This document shows, one piece after another, positions 169-51,679 of a stretch of 51,679 nt of DNA. Location: positions 1-51,679 of the forward strand of contig JAFUEX010000008.1 of NCBI GenBank assembly GCA_017470165.1, written 5' to 3'. Made by a program: the position numbers and the translations under genes. The stretch comes from Alphaproteobacteria bacterium (GTDB lineage Bacteria > Pseudomonadota > Alphaproteobacteria > RF32 > CAG-239). The notes beneath the pieces were generated by a model. That model searched no databases. It worked only from the letters and a program-made list of their open reading frames with translations, and was not told the origin of the DNA. Within the stretch, counting starts at the first letter, position 1; the number at the start of each line of letters is the position of its first letter.

Positions 169-600
169 GTCACCCCCGAGCGGCTGTAAGCCGCGAGTAA
201 GGGGTCTCATGACCATTAAGGAAATGTCACCCCTTTTTCTGTGACGGATGTCACAGGAAAATCAGGGGTCTCATGACCACAAGGACACTTATGACAAAGA
301 GATGCCTTATTCGCGGACTAAAGTCCGCTCAGGCATGACATTCCTGTGTTTTTTTTCATTATCCTGTCACCCCTTTTCATTATCCTGTCACCCCTTCGCC
401 GCATCGCGGCGAATAAGGGGTCTCATGTTGTTTTTTTATGTCATCGCTGAGCCGTTTATAAAACGGCGAATAAGCGATCTCTTCCTTTTTTATGTCATCG
501 CTGAGTGCCGTAAGGCACGAATAAGCGATCCCATCGTCACAAGGACACTTATGACAAAGAGATGCCTTATTCGCGAACTAAAGTCCGCTCAGGCATGACA
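169..600. repeat. Cluster of seven double-stem hairpin repeats (cluster 1)
   Basis: Seven hairpin units lie at 169-206, 226-270, 301-340, 388-422, 441-480, 495-530 and 561-600. Units 3 and 7 are inverted relative to the others. The common plan is TGTCA, a 5-6 bp outer stem, GAG, an inner stem-loop, GAATAA (or GAGTAA), then the other half of the outer stem followed by a CTCATGAC-like flank. Outer stems differ between units (ATCGCT/AGCGAT, ACCCCT/AGGGGT, ATGCCT/AGGCAT) but stay paired, and inner stems do the same. The unit at 226-270 has the other inner stem, CTGTGAC/GTCACAG. A stretch of about 65 bp around 275-345 is nearly repeated at 535-605. No protein-coding gene is supported here. The layout resembles REP/BIME intergenic repeats, but I do not recognise the family. 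Confidence 0.85.
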
Positions 601-11318: not shown

Positions 11319-11390
11319 AAAATCGGGAGCTGGTCACTTTTGAAATCGGGCTGGTCACCGCTGAGCGAGGAACGAGCGAATAAGCGGTCT
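11319..11390 (+). repeat. Solo double-stem hairpin repeat plus a short tandem duplication
   Basis: A unit of the same hairpin family lies at 11354-11390, with outer stem ACCGCT/AGCGGT, the GAG and GAATAA internal loop, and a degenerate inner stem. Just before it, AATCGGG...CTGGTCAC is duplicated in tandem (11321-11337 and 11345-11358). The rest of 11305-11498 holds no gene I can support. Confidence 0.6.
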
Positions 11391-14189: not shown

Positions 14190-14289
14190 AATTGTCTCCT
14201 TTATCTTAAAGATAATCCAAATAAAATTGCATTTCAACATATTTTTTACACTAAACAATAAAAACTATGTAAAATATGTATAAAAACCA

Positions 14290-14316
14290 AAAACCGCCCC
14301 GCGGCGAATAGCCCGA
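14290..14316. repeat. Mini-hairpin direct repeat, copy 1
   Basis: An imperfect direct repeat around CCGCCCCGCGGCGAATAG, matched at 14762-14789 with two C/T differences. It contains a small GCC/GGC hairpin followed by GAATAG, recalling the 3' internal loop of the larger hairpin family. The two copies bracket the central part of repeat cluster 2. Confidence 0.6.
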
Positions 14317-14349
14317 ACCCAAATAAGGGCATAGTCCATCCCAGCACTG

Positions 14350-14596
14350 TCATCGCTGAGTGCCGCAAGGCACGAATAAGCGATCCCATGACTATTAAGA
14401 GAATGTCATCGCTGAGCCGTTTGTAAAATGGCGAATAAGCGATCCCATCGTCAAGGGGACTGTCACCCCTTTTCATTATCCTGTCACCCCCCCCTTGCTG
14501 CATCGCGGCGAATAAGGGGTCTCCCGACCATTATGCACCCAAAGCCCTTGCTGTCACCCCTTTTTCTGTGACGGATGTCACAGAAAAATCAGGGGT
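14350..14596. repeat. Double-stem hairpin repeats (cluster 2, left part)
   Basis: Four units lie at 14350-14386, 14404-14446, 14482-14523 and 14552-14596. The first two have outer stem ATCGCT/AGCGAT, with inner stems GTGCC/GGCAC and GCCGTTT/AAATGGC; the latter pairs through a G-U where cluster 1 has C-G. The third has outer stem ACCCC/GGGGT with inner GCTGC/GCGGC. The fourth is the CTGTGAC/GTCACAG type also seen at 226-270. The linker between the third and fourth units recurs exactly near 51611-51650. Confidence 0.8.
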
Positions 14597-14671
14597 CGCA
14601 TCATCATAAAGCGCTGTGACAACAAAAAAACATTAGGTTCGGGCTTGATGAGCAAAGCGGGAAACAGTGGC

Positions 14672-14766
14672 TTTTTCTCAAGGCTGGCGATGATTATCCT
14701 TTTGCGACCTCGTCACGCGCGTATTGTCGCGTGTAAGTAGATCGCAGCCTTATGCCTTGAGAAAAA
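14672..14766. repeat. 13-bp inverted repeat enclosing about 70 nt
   Basis: TTTTTCTCAAGGC (14672-14684) and its exact complement GCCTTGAGAAAAA (14754-14766) bracket a GC-rich segment. No coding sequence is evident inside; a long-range stem or an eroded mobile-element core are both possible. The stretch 14790-14865 shows nothing recognisable. Confidence 0.55.
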
Positions 14767-14789
14767 CCGCCCCGTGGCGAATAGTCCGA
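14762..14789. repeat. Mini-hairpin direct repeat, copy 2
   Basis: Second copy of the CCGCCCCG-GGCGAATAG repeat at 14290-14316. It overlaps the right arm of the 13-bp inverted repeat. Confidence 0.6.
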
Positions 14790-14865
14790 TGATTTTAGGG
14801 TTACGCCAGCCCGCGGCTGTTTGATCACTCAAAAGTAACGTAAAAAAACGTTTTTTATGACGATG

Positions 14866-14960
14866 AGATGCCTTATTCGCGGACTAAAGTCCGCTCAGGC
14901 ATGACATTCCTTGGAGGATAAAGAGACCGCTTATTCGTGCCTTGTGGCACTCAGCGATGA
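14866..14960 (-). repeat. Two inverted-orientation hairpin repeats (cluster 2, right part)
   Basis: Units at 14866-14905 (outer stem ATGCCT/AGGCAT, inner GCGGACT/AGTCCGC) and 14925-14960 (outer ATCGCT/AGCGGT with one wobble pair, inner GTGCC/GGCAC), both reading on the minus strand. They lie directly downstream of cysS. Confidence 0.8.
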
Positions 14961-14988
14961 CATTCCTTAATTGTCGAAACCCCTTGAG

Positions 14989-16359
14989 TTATAATCTTTT
15001 CCAAGTGGTACCTTGAGGAGAATCTTCCAGAATTATGCCGCGAGATTTCAGCTCCTCACGGATACCATCCGCCTTAGCAAAGTCTTTGGCCTTTTTAGCC
15101 GCCGCACGTTCGGCAATCAGCTGTTCAATTTCCGCGGTCTCATCGCCGGCATCTCCCTTAAACCAAACCTCAGCATCCTGATACAACAGTCCGAGCAAGT
15201 CAGCCGAGGCCAGCAATACCGCCTTTTTCTCGGCAATTTCCTGCGGTGTCTCCGCCTTATTCAAATCACCGGCCAGCTCGTGAATATAACTCAATGCCAA
15301 TGGAGTATTGAGGTCATCTTCCAATGCATTAACTACCCGCACATCCGGTTCTGCCGTCAAAGTTGCCGCATCTTTAGCCTTCAGCAAAGCATTGTAAAAT
15401 TTATCCAAGGTCTGCTTGGCATTTTCCAGCCCCTCAAACGTAAAATTAAACGGCTGATGATAATGCGCGGTAAGAAAAGTCAACCGCAATGCCTCAGCCG
15501 GCGCTTTTTCCAACACCTGTTCAATCGTGTAAAAATTACCCAGCGATTTTGACATCTTTACGCCGTCAACCATCAGCATTCCGCCGTGCACCCAAAATCT
15601 GGCAAATTCATCATTCGGATGAGCGCACATCGACTGCGCACACTCATTTTCGTGGTGCGGAAATATCAAATCGGCACCACCGCCGTGAATATCAAACGAA
15701 TTTCCCAACAACTTGGCGCTCATCGCCGAACATTCCAAATGCCATCCCGGACGGCCGAACCCCCACGGGCTCTCCCATCCTGGTTGCTCCGCAGATGACG
15801 GCTTCCACAAAACAAAATCTTCCGGATTCTTTTTATAATCGGCCACCTCGATTCGTGCACCGGCCAACATTTCTTTGCGCGAGCGCTTGGAGAGGAACCC
15901 GTAATTCGGCATCGATTCAACATCAAACAAAATATGTCCGCCGGCGGCATAAGCATGACCGTTGTCCAACAATTGCTGGACCAACTCTATCATCTCGTTG
16001 ATATATTCGGTAGCCTTGGGACGAAAATTCGGCTCCAACACATTGAGCTTAGCCATGTCATCAACATACCATTGATAGGTCTGCCGCGTAATTTCGGCAA
16101 TTGTCTGCCCGCTGCTCAGTGACTTGTTGATGATTTTATCATCAATATCCGTAATGTTGGAGACATAAGTAACGTGATTTTTGCCATATTTATGCACCAA
16201 CACCCGATACAAAATATCAAACGACACCGAGGTTTTGATATTGCCCAAATGCGCATGGTCATAAACCGTCGGCCCGCAGACATACATCCTAACATTATCG
16301 GCATCAATCGGCTTAAACTCTTCTTTGCGTCCGCTCAAGGTATTAAAAATCTGCATCAA
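14989..16359 (-). CDS. cysS: Cysteine--tRNA ligase CysS
   Basis: Charges tRNA-Cys with cysteine. The class I synthetase of 456 residues shows the zinc-site cysteine in MYVCGPTVYDHAHLGN (C28, HIGH-type motif at 37-40), a WHLECSAM zinc ligand region, HHENE, and the KMSKS loop in GVKMSKSLGNF. The length is normal. The ATG at 16359 (or the next codon) follows AAAGGAGAAAAA. It lies 15 nt downstream of gltX on the same strand, so the two synthetases are probably cotranscribed. Confidence 0.97.
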   Translation of the reverse strand: MMQIFNTLSGRKEEFKPIDADNVRMYVCGPTVYDHAHLGNIKTSVSFDILYRVLVHKYGKNHVTYVSNITDIDDKIINKSLSSGQTIAEITRQTYQWYVDDMAKLNVLEPNFRPKATEYINEMIELVQQLLDNGHAYAAGGHILFDVESMPNYGFLSKRSRKEMLAGARIEVADYKKNPEDFVLWKPSSAEQPGWESPWGFGRPGWHLECSAMSAKLLGNSFDIHGGGADLIFPHHENECAQSMCAHPNDEFARFWVHGGMLMVDGVKMSKSLGNFYTIEQVLEKAPAEALRLTFLTAHYHQPFNFTFEGLENAKQTLDKFYNALLKAKDAATLTAEPDVRVVNALEDDLNTPLALSYIHELAGDLNKAETPQEIAEKKAVLLASADLLGLLYQDAEVWFKGDAGDETAEIEQLIAERAAAKKAKDFAKADGIREELKSRGIILEDSPQGTTWKRL

Positions 16360-29027: not shown

Positions 29028-30956
29028 TTACCTTGATTTTCGATAGCGAATTGCCATATTTAATGACATTCTCTGCCACATTTTTGCTCCGTTTTCTTTT
29101 AATTTATCAAACAATTTTTGATATCTTTCATCTTGACCGCAAACAAGCTCTTTAACCGATGGGCATGGTTTGCCGGCAAGCGAATTTTTTACACCATTAA
29201 CAACCGTGTTTCCAGATAAAGCCATAATAGTCAGACCTTCTTTGCTTAATCCCTGTTTTTTTGGTAGGTAGCCTAAGAAATCATGATCTTCGACATCTTC
29301 ACCCATTGACGGTGTTAAAAATAACTCGCCTTGTTTATCTGGAAAGTAACTCAACATTACTTCATTATTTTTTGCCATTGCCCGAATTTCGGTTTCAAAA
29401 TTGTTATGGTGGTTGATTCTCCAATCTTGTGCCGAAGCAAACGAAATCATTGTTGATTTAGAAACACCGAGCGGAGCATAAGGAGCATGAGCCACACATA
29501 ACATTTCGTGCTGAATTTTGGCGTGTTCCTCTGCAGAATAACCAAGCTCCTGCATCTTTTTCTGCATTTTCTCTTCTAATTTAAGGAATGTGTAAGCACC
29601 ATGACAATGTGCCACAATCGTTAATTTGCGGATTTTTGCGCAAGCCTCTTCAGTAGAAAGCCTTTTCCCGTTTTTATCGCTTATACGTGGCAATAACGCT
29701 TTATCAAATAAATCGTCAACATAACGCGGATGGAGCGTATCTTCATTAAGTTGTTTATTTAGTTTTACCGAGCGGTGATGGTCTTGCATTAACTTTGTTC
29801 GAGCTAAATAATCATTGAACGCAACAGCTTCATCATCAAACTCGCCAAAATCATAAATCGCCGCGTAAAGTGCAACATTTTCCTCTACCTTATGGTGTTG
29901 CAATAATTTTTCGAGAGATGAAAGATACCCGTTAGCACTTCTGTCTGAATTTGTGGCATTTCCGCCCAAAAACAAAATGGCCGTTTCATCAGTTGTTATG
30001 CTGTCCACATTTTTAAACCCGTGTGGATTATCGTCTGTCTTTTCGACACGCTGGCCGACAGATAAACGCGATGTTAATTCATCAATTCTGCCCATTTGCC
30101 GATAAGCGGCTCTTTTAGAACTCATGCTGTTTTTGGGATTTTGCAAACCTTGCATAAAAATTGCATCTACTTTTTCTGTATGCGGATAAACACTACGTAT
30201 TTTGCCTAAAACTTCATAGGCTTTTTTAAGGTCTATGGTATCGTGGTTTGTATCTGCTATTTTTGAGCTTATTATATGCATACATTCCGGTATTTTCTCA
30301 CTGTCTGCCGTAATAATAGCTCCCAAATTTTCATACAGACGATTAAATTTGGAGGTTGTTGAAGCTTCTTTTAATAACTTTCCCCAAATTTTCTCCCTTA
30401 AGCGTGGTTTTTGAGCATATAATTCTCCGTAAGACGAAACAAATAAATTCTGAATTTCAGGTTTAAATGAATTTACTTTCTTCATCATGAAAGGAAGTTC
30501 TTCATCTGCCGCACACAGGAGTGCAGTTGTCATATTATGAGCCGCTAGCATAAAAAAATTTTTCTTATCATCACTATACGGTATTTTCTCAACTTGTGAT
30601 GCAATAAAATTAAAAACCGGCTCGACGGCAACAGGATTTTGCTCACAAATAATATTTGCTTCACGCTCAATAAAATCATCTCTCTTTTGATTATGGAGAG
30701 TACTAAGTACTTCGGCTATTTGTGTCTGTGAAAGATTTTTTGAAATGGAAGCAAATGTTTCAGCTGCAACCGGTAACATATCCGAACTTGTGCCTTTCCC
30801 TTCAAGCAAGCGATAAAATTTCGGCAATAACTGACTCGCCGTTTGCGGAGATTCTTCGACTAATTTTTGCAATGACTTTAACAAACCGGCATGTTCTCCG
30901 AAGTTCAATGCCGATATATCTTTAATCGTTTCTATATCCACTACATTTTCAGCCAT
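29028..30956 (-). CDS. Large unrecognised protein with hydrolase-like C-terminal half
   Basis: 642 residues with no signal peptide or membrane helix. The first 300 residues are helical and repeat-like (LLKSLQKLVEESPQTASQLL, NLSQTQIAEVLSTLHNQKRD), suggesting a HEAT-like solenoid. The second half has strand-turn motifs of an alpha/beta hydrolase: ETAILFLGGNATNSDRS (about 324-340) and RKLTIVAHCHGAYTFLKLEE (about 443-462), where AHCHG resembles a nucleophile elbow with C451 in place of Ser. A later HNNFETEIRA or HDFLGYLP segment could supply the His. It may be a secreted or intracellular effector, but that is inference. It belongs to a minus-strand group inside the integrated region. Confidence 0.65.
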   Translation of the reverse strand: MAENVVDIETIKDISALNFGEHAGLLKSLQKLVEESPQTASQLLPKFYRLLEGKGTSSDMLPVAAETFASISKNLSQTQIAEVLSTLHNQKRDDFIEREANIICEQNPVAVEPVFNFIASQVEKIPYSDDKKNFFMLAAHNMTTALLCAADEELPFMMKKVNSFKPEIQNLFVSSYGELYAQKPRLREKIWGKLLKEASTTSKFNRLYENLGAIITADSEKIPECMHIISSKIADTNHDTIDLKKAYEVLGKIRSVYPHTEKVDAIFMQGLQNPKNSMSSKRAAYRQMGRIDELTSRLSVGQRVEKTDDNPHGFKNVDSITTDETAILFLGGNATNSDRSANGYLSSLEKLLQHHKVEENVALYAAIYDFGEFDDEAVAFNDYLARTKLMQDHHRSVKLNKQLNEDTLHPRYVDDLFDKALLPRISDKNGKRLSTEEACAKIRKLTIVAHCHGAYTFLKLEEKMQKKMQELGYSAEEHAKIQHEMLCVAHAPYAPLGVSKSTMISFASAQDWRINHHNNFETEIRAMAKNNEVMLSYFPDKQGELFLTPSMGEDVEDHDFLGYLPKKQGLSKEGLTIMALSGNTVVNGVKNSLAGKPCPSVKELVCGQDERYQKLFDKLKENGAKMWQRMSLNMAIRYRKSR

Positions 30957-51535: not shown

Positions 51536-51679
51536 ATGGCGAGTAAGGGGTCTCATCGTCACAAGAGGAATGTCACCCCCGAGCCGTTTGCAGAACGGCG
51601 AGTAAGGGGTCTCCCGACCATTATGCACCCAAAGCCCTTGCTGTCACCCCTTCGCTGCATCGCGGCGAATAAGGGGGCT
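51536..51679 (+). repeat. Double-stem hairpin repeats (cluster 3, continues past the edge)
   Basis: A half unit at 51536-51553 (only GGCGAGTAAGGGGTCTC), a full unit at 51571-51612 (outer ACCCC/GGGGT, inner GCCGTT/AACGGC) and another at 51641-51679 cut by the window edge (inner GCTGC/GCGGC). The linker 51611-51650 is identical to one in cluster 2. Confidence 0.8.

Follow-up and report, generated by a model that had tools for sequence, protein, structure and literature searches.

The hairpin repeats analysed here are probably DNA-level elements with a GTC tag, which would be amplified locally by recombination or template switching and dispersed by a trans-acting activity other than a Y1 transposase. 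They were studied in a stretch of 51,679 bases (the window), which is the whole of contig C24 of a draft genome of 1.45 Mb in 26 contigs (G000), so that the clusters at its two ends are cut off by the contig ends. The refined anatomy of the hairpin and the covariation of its arms are well supported.

Hairpin anatomy

Read on the TGTC strand and from its base upwards, the hairpin has an outer stem of 5 bp, then a 3-nt T-N-A bulge in the 3' arm, a Y-R pair, a tandem GA/GA step and an inner stem that varies freely. The Y-R pair is a sixth outer pair, to which the base directly following the 3' GA contributes (T pairing with A, or C with G), and this leaves T-N-A as the unpaired 3' part. Among the 65 unique units that kept at least three of the five outer pairs, the base before the 5' GA and the base after the 3' GA were T-A in 49 cases, C-G in 14, T-G in one and C-A in one. 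The asymmetric internal loop noted in the preliminary description is therefore kept as an irregularity, which is here divided into three elements: the Y-R pair, the tandem GA/GA and the T-N-A bulge of 3 nt. The bulge was TAA in 79, TTA in 47 and TCA in 18 (together 144) of the 193 scanned hairpins, and it was absent from 27, 20 of which came from genome G027, where many CGGGCTTGACCCG hairpins occur. The GAG and GAATAA said to be shared by the units were not universal: the units at 226, 387, 14483, 14553 and 51643 carry other inner hairpins yet keep the T-N-A bulge, those at 226 and 387 with inner hairpins that are unrelated. Of 70 unique units, 35 had a G-N-A and 10 a G-N-N-A apical loop, and a second GA/GA step was found at inner pairs 3–4 in several unrelated inner stems.

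The ends of the units were read from 171 units that had passed a filter demanding GTCA, T.A and a C directly thereafter. In these units, the base 5' of GTC was T in 168, G in two and C in one, and the tag, previously given as TGTCA, is read as TGTC. The base after the required C was T in 162 units, which places a CT next to the hairpin; the 3' tails were CTT (77), CTC (52), CTA (30), CCC (6), CTG (3), CCA (1) and two others. Repeats of the GTCATTCTCGGGCTTGACCCGAGAATC type, a GTC-tagged hairpin without a bulge, are found alongside the bulged type in G027 and are present in G009 as well (L093–L095, L102, L166).

Units in the window

Direct reading of the window, a hairpin scan and a covariance model located units at 169–599, 11354, 14349–14961 and 51537–51679, that is, in the three clusters and at the solo site named in the preliminary description, and all the outer and inner stems listed there were recovered by direct reading and the hairpin scan. 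GAATAAGSS occurs 14 times in the window (2.19 expected).

The first cluster opens on the plus strand with a unit at 169–206 (outer ACCCC/GGGGT, Y-R pair C-G, GA/GA, inner GCGGCT/AGCCGC, bulge TAA) and one with a different inner hairpin (TTTTTCTGTGAC..GTCACAGGAAAA) and the bulge TCA (226–269), followed on the minus strand by a unit with outer stem ATGCC/GGCAT, inner stem GCGGACT/AGTCCGC and bulge TAA (302–339). The plus strand then carries a truncated 5' half unit (GTCACCCCTTTTCATTATCCT, 366–386), a second copy of which lies in the next cluster (14462–14482, plus strand), a unit with the inner stem CGCCGC..GCGGCG that is without GAG and has the bulge TAA (387–421), and two units with outer stem ATCGC/GCGAT and bulge TAA, one with inner stem GCCGTTT/AAACGGC (440–478) and one with GTGCC/GGCAC (494–529). 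A minus-strand unit at 562–599 (outer ATGCC/GGCAT, inner GCGGACT/AGTTCGC with one wobble, bulge TAA) ends the cluster. The solo unit (11354–11388, plus strand) has outer stem ACCGC/GCGGT, an inner GCGAG-GAA-CGAGC with a second GA/GA step, and bulge TAA.

The plus strand of the next cluster holds two units with outer stem ATCGC/GCGAT and inner stems GTGCC/GGCAC (14349–14384) or GCCGTTT/AAATGGC with one wobble (14405–14443), a degenerate unit with outer stem ACCCC/GGGGT and bulge TAA (14483–14520), and a unit resembling that at 226, with bulge TCA (14553–14596); its minus strand holds a unit with outer ATGCC/GGCAT and inner GCGGACT/AGTCCGC (14868–14905) and one with inner GTGCC/GGCAC whose outer stem, ATCGC/GCGGT, contains a T.G wobble (14926–14961). 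Imperfect outer arms were recorded for this last unit (ATCGCT/AGCGGT) and for two chimeras on other contigs (C3:9477 and C7:79630). At the contig end, all on the plus strand, lie a 3' half unit (GGCGAGTAAGGGGTC, 51537–51553), a unit with outer stem ACCCC/GGGGT, Y-R pair C-G, inner stem GCCGTT..AACGGC and bulge TAA (51572–51610), and a unit with inner stem CGCTGC..GCGGCG and bulge TAA that is cut by the contig end (51643–51679).

Further repeat modules are interleaved with the units (window 14289–14316 and 14762–14789; L097 2288–2440 and 3739–3890) and include AAAAACCGCCCCGCGGCGAATAGCCCGA and the TTTGGGATTGCGAGCC.. block. Elsewhere in the window, a 642-aa ORF (29028–30956) gave no Pfam match at E ≤ 0.001.

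Covariation of the arms

The hairpin scans (193 hairpins, 171 units, 70 clusters) select paired arms, and pairing itself can be tested only in letter-anchored sets; for the analysis of covariation, units were collected from loci in four genomes, each of a different species, by their unpaired letters only (GTC, GA, GA, T-N-A, C). This gave 135 matches, of which 70 were unique, two plain chance matches to the anchor among them. Ten of the 12 stem pairs stood among the 13 top-ranked of 276 column pairs (ranks 1–7, 9, 12 and 13; corrected G statistic, 70 unique units), the Y-R pair holding rank 9, and outer pairs 5 and 1 ranked 36 and 89 because they hardly vary. Non-stem column pairs share the units' history, and the ranking thus serves as a partial control for relatedness, one that differs from R-scape. 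Inner pairs 2–5 were paired in 66, 60, 51 and 63 of the 70 units, compared with shuffled means of 32.5, 20.8, 23.1 and 19.6, and each of them used three to four Watson-Crick types. With the six-pair outer stem as set before the Y-R correction, outer pairs were Watson-Crick in 410 of 468 cases in 78 unique units, compared with a shuffled mean of 320.

All six outer pairs were Watson-Crick in 48 of the 70 units and seven units had wobbles only, while 15 had at least one mismatch, a count that includes the two chance anchor matches and the chimeras in G000. Changes on one arm are thus matched on the other, as the preliminary description had it, and mismatched arms, which were named there as grounds for refutation if as frequent as matched ones, are a minority. 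There were only four outer stems in the GA class, so that the outer covariation rests on few events; the same inner stem occurred with two or three outer stems within one genome in seven cases, chimeras and point variants counted. Selection on a folded nucleic acid, which had been read from these patterns, is likely and falls short of proof, since template switching can also hold arms complementary (PMC8794818, in the part available).

The folding molecule and strand

We infer that the folded molecule is DNA rather than RNA. Folded as single-stranded DNA, eight of a subset of nine window units gave z values from -2.4 to -6.3, the ninth, at 11354, reaching -0.36 because its inner stem relies on G.A pairs, which the model does not reward. 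The TGTC strand had the lower predicted DNA energy in seven of the nine units and the higher in one, with a tie in the remaining one, and the difference was small. The purine mismatches occur on the TGTC strand only, suggesting that this is the strand that would fold. Tandem sheared GA pairs and G-N-A loops are stable in DNA, and NMR work has reportedly been carried out on d(ATGAGCGAATA), whose letters resemble the unit junction. Entries for d(GCGAAGC) are given in the available part of PMC5430850.

An RNA element, acting as a 3' UTR stabiliser, a terminator or a processed small RNA, had also been considered in the preliminary description. Such a role would suit the scarcity of clusters between divergent genes, the start of some clusters 9–17 bp from a called gene end, and the GTAA and GCAA loops, which fit RNA too, as well as four terminator-like sites in window 14200–15100, compared with 1.2 in shuffles. 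These four sites were located in another repeat module (three) and on a truncated unit (one); no complete unit formed a terminator-like site in 14200–15100 or in 1–900, the latter region being without any such site. In tandem gene contexts, 32 units were sense and 28 antisense, showing no gene-strand bias, an Rfam search returned four tRNAs and otherwise no match, and the distribution across the genus is patchy. Neither strand use nor the terminator scan of the two regions lends support to an RNA element, which we regard as improbable.

Arrangement and gene context

Neighbouring units were arranged with GTC outside (HH) in 39 pairs, with GTC inside (TT) in 31 and in tandem (HT) in 34, and clusters reached eight units (L082). 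Spacers fell into fixed classes: GTC-outside spacers measured 29–30 bp in six of seven pairs in G000 and 23 bp (5) or 84–89 bp (12) in 17 of 20 pairs in G007, and GTC-inside spacers 8–14 bp in 12 of 13 pairs in G027. The 70 clusters include two chance hairpins inside ORFs, one making up a whole cluster (window 22306) and one being the first member of a cluster (L083 1641). For the 46 clusters with both neighbouring genes visible, a simple ORF caller gave 19 convergent, 22 tandem and five divergent contexts. The fixed spacer classes and the few divergent gene pairs agree with the REP/BIME-like character first suggested for the units. Fourteen of the 70 clusters overlapped a called ORF of at least 90 aa. 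Of these ORFs or sets of ORFs, 11 are short, most being doubtful, and the three long ones correspond to the two chance hairpins and to a flagellin ORF (L095), overlapped in the region N-terminal to its Pfam domain.

One nine-member protein family flanks clusters in four genomes (L074, L086, L091, L095, L098, L102, L106, L107, L109), and three of its four scanned members match flagellin. An HU-like gene also recurs beside clusters (L055, L097 and L108, of which L055 was scanned against Pfam).

Cluster dynamics in sister species

Over the long flanks of four loci, the genomes G027 and G009 share 86–92% identity. One of these loci carries a single unit in G009 and, in G027, two units of like orientation with a block between them; elsewhere, G009 lacks a six-unit cluster, or a dimer together with the repeat module next to it, that is present in G027. 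No clean single-unit insertion or empty site with exact ends was found in these comparisons, L093/L105 and L102/L166 differing by a block with other repeats at its borders. The inner-stem swaps and the block differences are both what recombination or template switching between units would produce, and deletion or exchange between units explains the sister-species differences as well as insertion does. This pair of species offers a way to follow the gain and loss of blocks. Plain palindromes, GTTACTTTTG..CAAAAGTAAC and GACACTTTTGAGTGACCAAAAGTGTC, recur in the mosaics (L097 near 7800; L093, L102, L105, L106).

Replication template switching (quasi-palindrome correction) might by itself keep the arms complementary without selection on the fold, in which case the units would be inert debris copied by recombination. 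According to the available part of PMC8794818, a single event of template switching is capable of both creating and repairing stems, and the chimeric and truncated units, the inner-stem swaps and the block gains and losses are all in keeping with such a process; it should, on the other hand, wipe out bulges and mismatches, yet the T-N-A bulge and the GA/GA step persist across unrelated inner stems. We consider this explanation rather unlikely. In the mechanism that we propose, the folded molecule would be single-stranded DNA exposed at replication, clusters would grow and shrink through recombination or template switching between units, and new sites may be seeded by a trans-acting, non-Y1 activity that would recognise the irregularity in mid-stem together with the TGTC tag. 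An influence on mRNA ends, if there is one, would be secondary.

Distribution among genomes

Counting units genome-wide and in relatives, as had been proposed, gave 77 places at E ≤ 1, 67 at E ≤ 0.01 and 64 under stricter filters in the own genome with a covariance model built from 14 of its own units. For 44 of the 67 matches, the nearest contig end is no more than 650 bp away, and the zone so defined makes up 2.3% of the genome; the repeats thus break the assembly, and copy number is underestimated. Strong matches among 35 genomes of the genus numbered 64 in G000, 36 in G007, 36 in G027, 12 in G009 and one in G029; G002, G008, G010, G018 and G023 had one or two matches at E 0.001–0.01, and 25 had none. 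A second class, GTCATTGCGA..GCAATC, which is also GTC-tagged, was represented in 36 genomes by 68 matches in G006 (a few of them nested), 12 in G007, three each in G003 and G029, and one in G018. In G006, these matches have very diverse inner stems within one 1.4-Mb genome, which makes them well suited as a second set of units for the study of covariation.

A class-level model search of 289 genomes recovered the own genome and one marginal match at E ≤ 1e-4, with 20 candidates scored per genome, so that weak carriers could escape. A loop-anchored pattern matched once in GTDB contigs and once in viral contigs; on reading, the arms of these matches were not complementary, and they were set aside as chance. 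The GTDB contig set may omit the own genome and its near relatives, no genus member having appeared, and that search is no measure of breadth. No TNA unit was found downstream of cysS in the 14 loci examined out of 29 from relatives, one of the 14 (L153) starting within the gene; GTCATTGCGAG units lie downstream of cysS in L164.

Two observations concern the host. In plasmid and chromid records, the best six matches to the PNPase from the window were alphaproteobacterial (60–61% identity), the best gammaproteobacterial match reaching 55%. A model for the alphaproteobacterial marker GcrA, which matched the Caulobacter and Sulfolobus acidocaldarius controls, gave no match in the own genome.

Search for a mobilising enzyme

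The suggestion that the units are REP/BIME elements moved by a RAYT, a Y1 transposase that would read the tag and the mid-stem bulge, was followed up by the search for a Y1 gene that the preliminary description had proposed. The architecture resembles that of E. coli REP, with a tag, an outer stem, unpaired mid-stem bases, an inner stem and a CT beside the hairpin (PMC8266576, in the part available), although the tag is TGTC, not GTAG. At E ≤ 0.01, PF01797 (Y1_Tnp) had no match in the repeat-rich genomes G000, G006, G007, G009 and G027, which are 88.9, 100, 96, 99 and 99% complete, G006 being ranked as repeat-rich through its GTCATTGCGA..GCAATC matches, nor in G029. The same search was positive in eight of the 36 genus genomes, all eight among the 31 that are not repeat-rich, and in six of 14 control genomes, E. 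coli and Caulobacter among them; the eight positive genus genomes had zero unit matches, whether to the TNA-bulged model or to the GTCATTGCGA..GCAATC class. PF12784 gave no match anywhere, the controls also being blank. Five of 36 congeneric species are thus rich in GTC-tagged repeats and none of these has a detectable Y1 gene, which argues, for this lineage, against a borrowed RAYT, and we regard mobilisation by such an enzyme as very improbable.

The units might instead form the termini of a larger MITE or composite element, or serve phages or insertion sequences as attachment sites, in line with their interleaving with other modules (GTTACTTTTG..CAAAAGTAAC and the TTTGGGATTGCGAGCC.. block). 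No such module was seen beside the solo unit at 11354, no transposase Pfam match was obtained for the 10 proteins scanned among 218 called flanking ORFs, and window 300–600 had no DNA match in phage records; of the explanations weighed here, this seems to us the least probable.

The spread of the repeats is compatible with a non-Y1 activity as well as with recombination and template switching alone. As a tentative candidate, which we would not expect to be correct in this specific form, the mobiliser could be a hypothetical non-Y1 enzyme acting on single-stranded DNA, reading TGTC and a TNA-bulged, GA/GA-stacked DNA hairpin and acting at the adjoining CT. Repeat-rich and repeat-free species stand side by side in this genus of small genomes, so that a comparison of gene content could find such an enzyme if it exists. 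The refined hairpin, with its TNA bulge, GA/GA step and G-N-A loop on one strand only, offers a concrete substrate for testing.

Comparison with known repeats

The intergenic mosaic elements of Neisseria, which are reportedly built on dRS3, resemble the present arrangement in that GTC-tagged palindromes lie amid other repeat families between genes, whereas their stems differ, and we know of no TNA-type bulge in them. The GTCATTGCGAG..GCAATC repeats of the genus share the tag and usually have GA after the outer stem on both sides, but have another outer stem and no TNA bulge. In open-licence papers, searched as text without figures, no published description of the TNA-bulged form was found.

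According to the available part of PMC8266576, the E. coli TnpA-REP cuts at CT and depends on GTAG and on bases left unpaired in mid-stem. The units are like these GTAG REP/RAYT systems in having a tag, unpaired mid-stem bases, alternating units and a CT beside the hairpin (162 of 171 filtered units), and unlike such REPtrons in their TGTC tag and in that a Y1 transposase was not detected in the carrying genomes, the own genome being 88.9% complete.

The closest likeness in detail concerns the CGTC repeats of Di Nocera et al. 2013 (PMC3733652), which, in the part of that paper available, comprise the families CGTC-1 to -4, including Neisseria dRS3 and Rickettsia RPE-4 and RPE-6, and are characterised by TGTC and CCTC tag variants, an A-T first pair, an uninterrupted 8–9 bp stem, a 4–5 nt loop and mostly a CCA tail. 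The same part describes HH dimers as predominant and clusters as rare, with the CGTC-1 repeats of Neisseria clustered, and reports an alphaproteobacterial bias and no association with a transposase; CGTC/TGTC repeats without one are said there to be common in alphaproteobacteria, their mode of spread being left open in 2013. Shared with that superfamily (PMC3733652, same part) are the one-ended GTC tag, the A-T first stem pair, sub-families set apart by complementary stem changes, spaced dimers, a location between convergent or co-directional genes (here 41 of the 46 clusters with visible neighbours) and, probably, the alphaproteobacterial home and the orphan status. The units differ in their two-part stem with a TNA bulge, a GA/GA step and loops mostly of 3–4 nt, in the tail CT(T/C/A), with CCA in one of 171 filtered units, and in their arrangement, as they commonly cluster and HH pairs are not predominant (39 HH, 31 TT, 34 HT). 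The units are likely a structural variant near the CGTC/TGTC-tagged REP superfamily rather than a member of CGTC-1 to -4.
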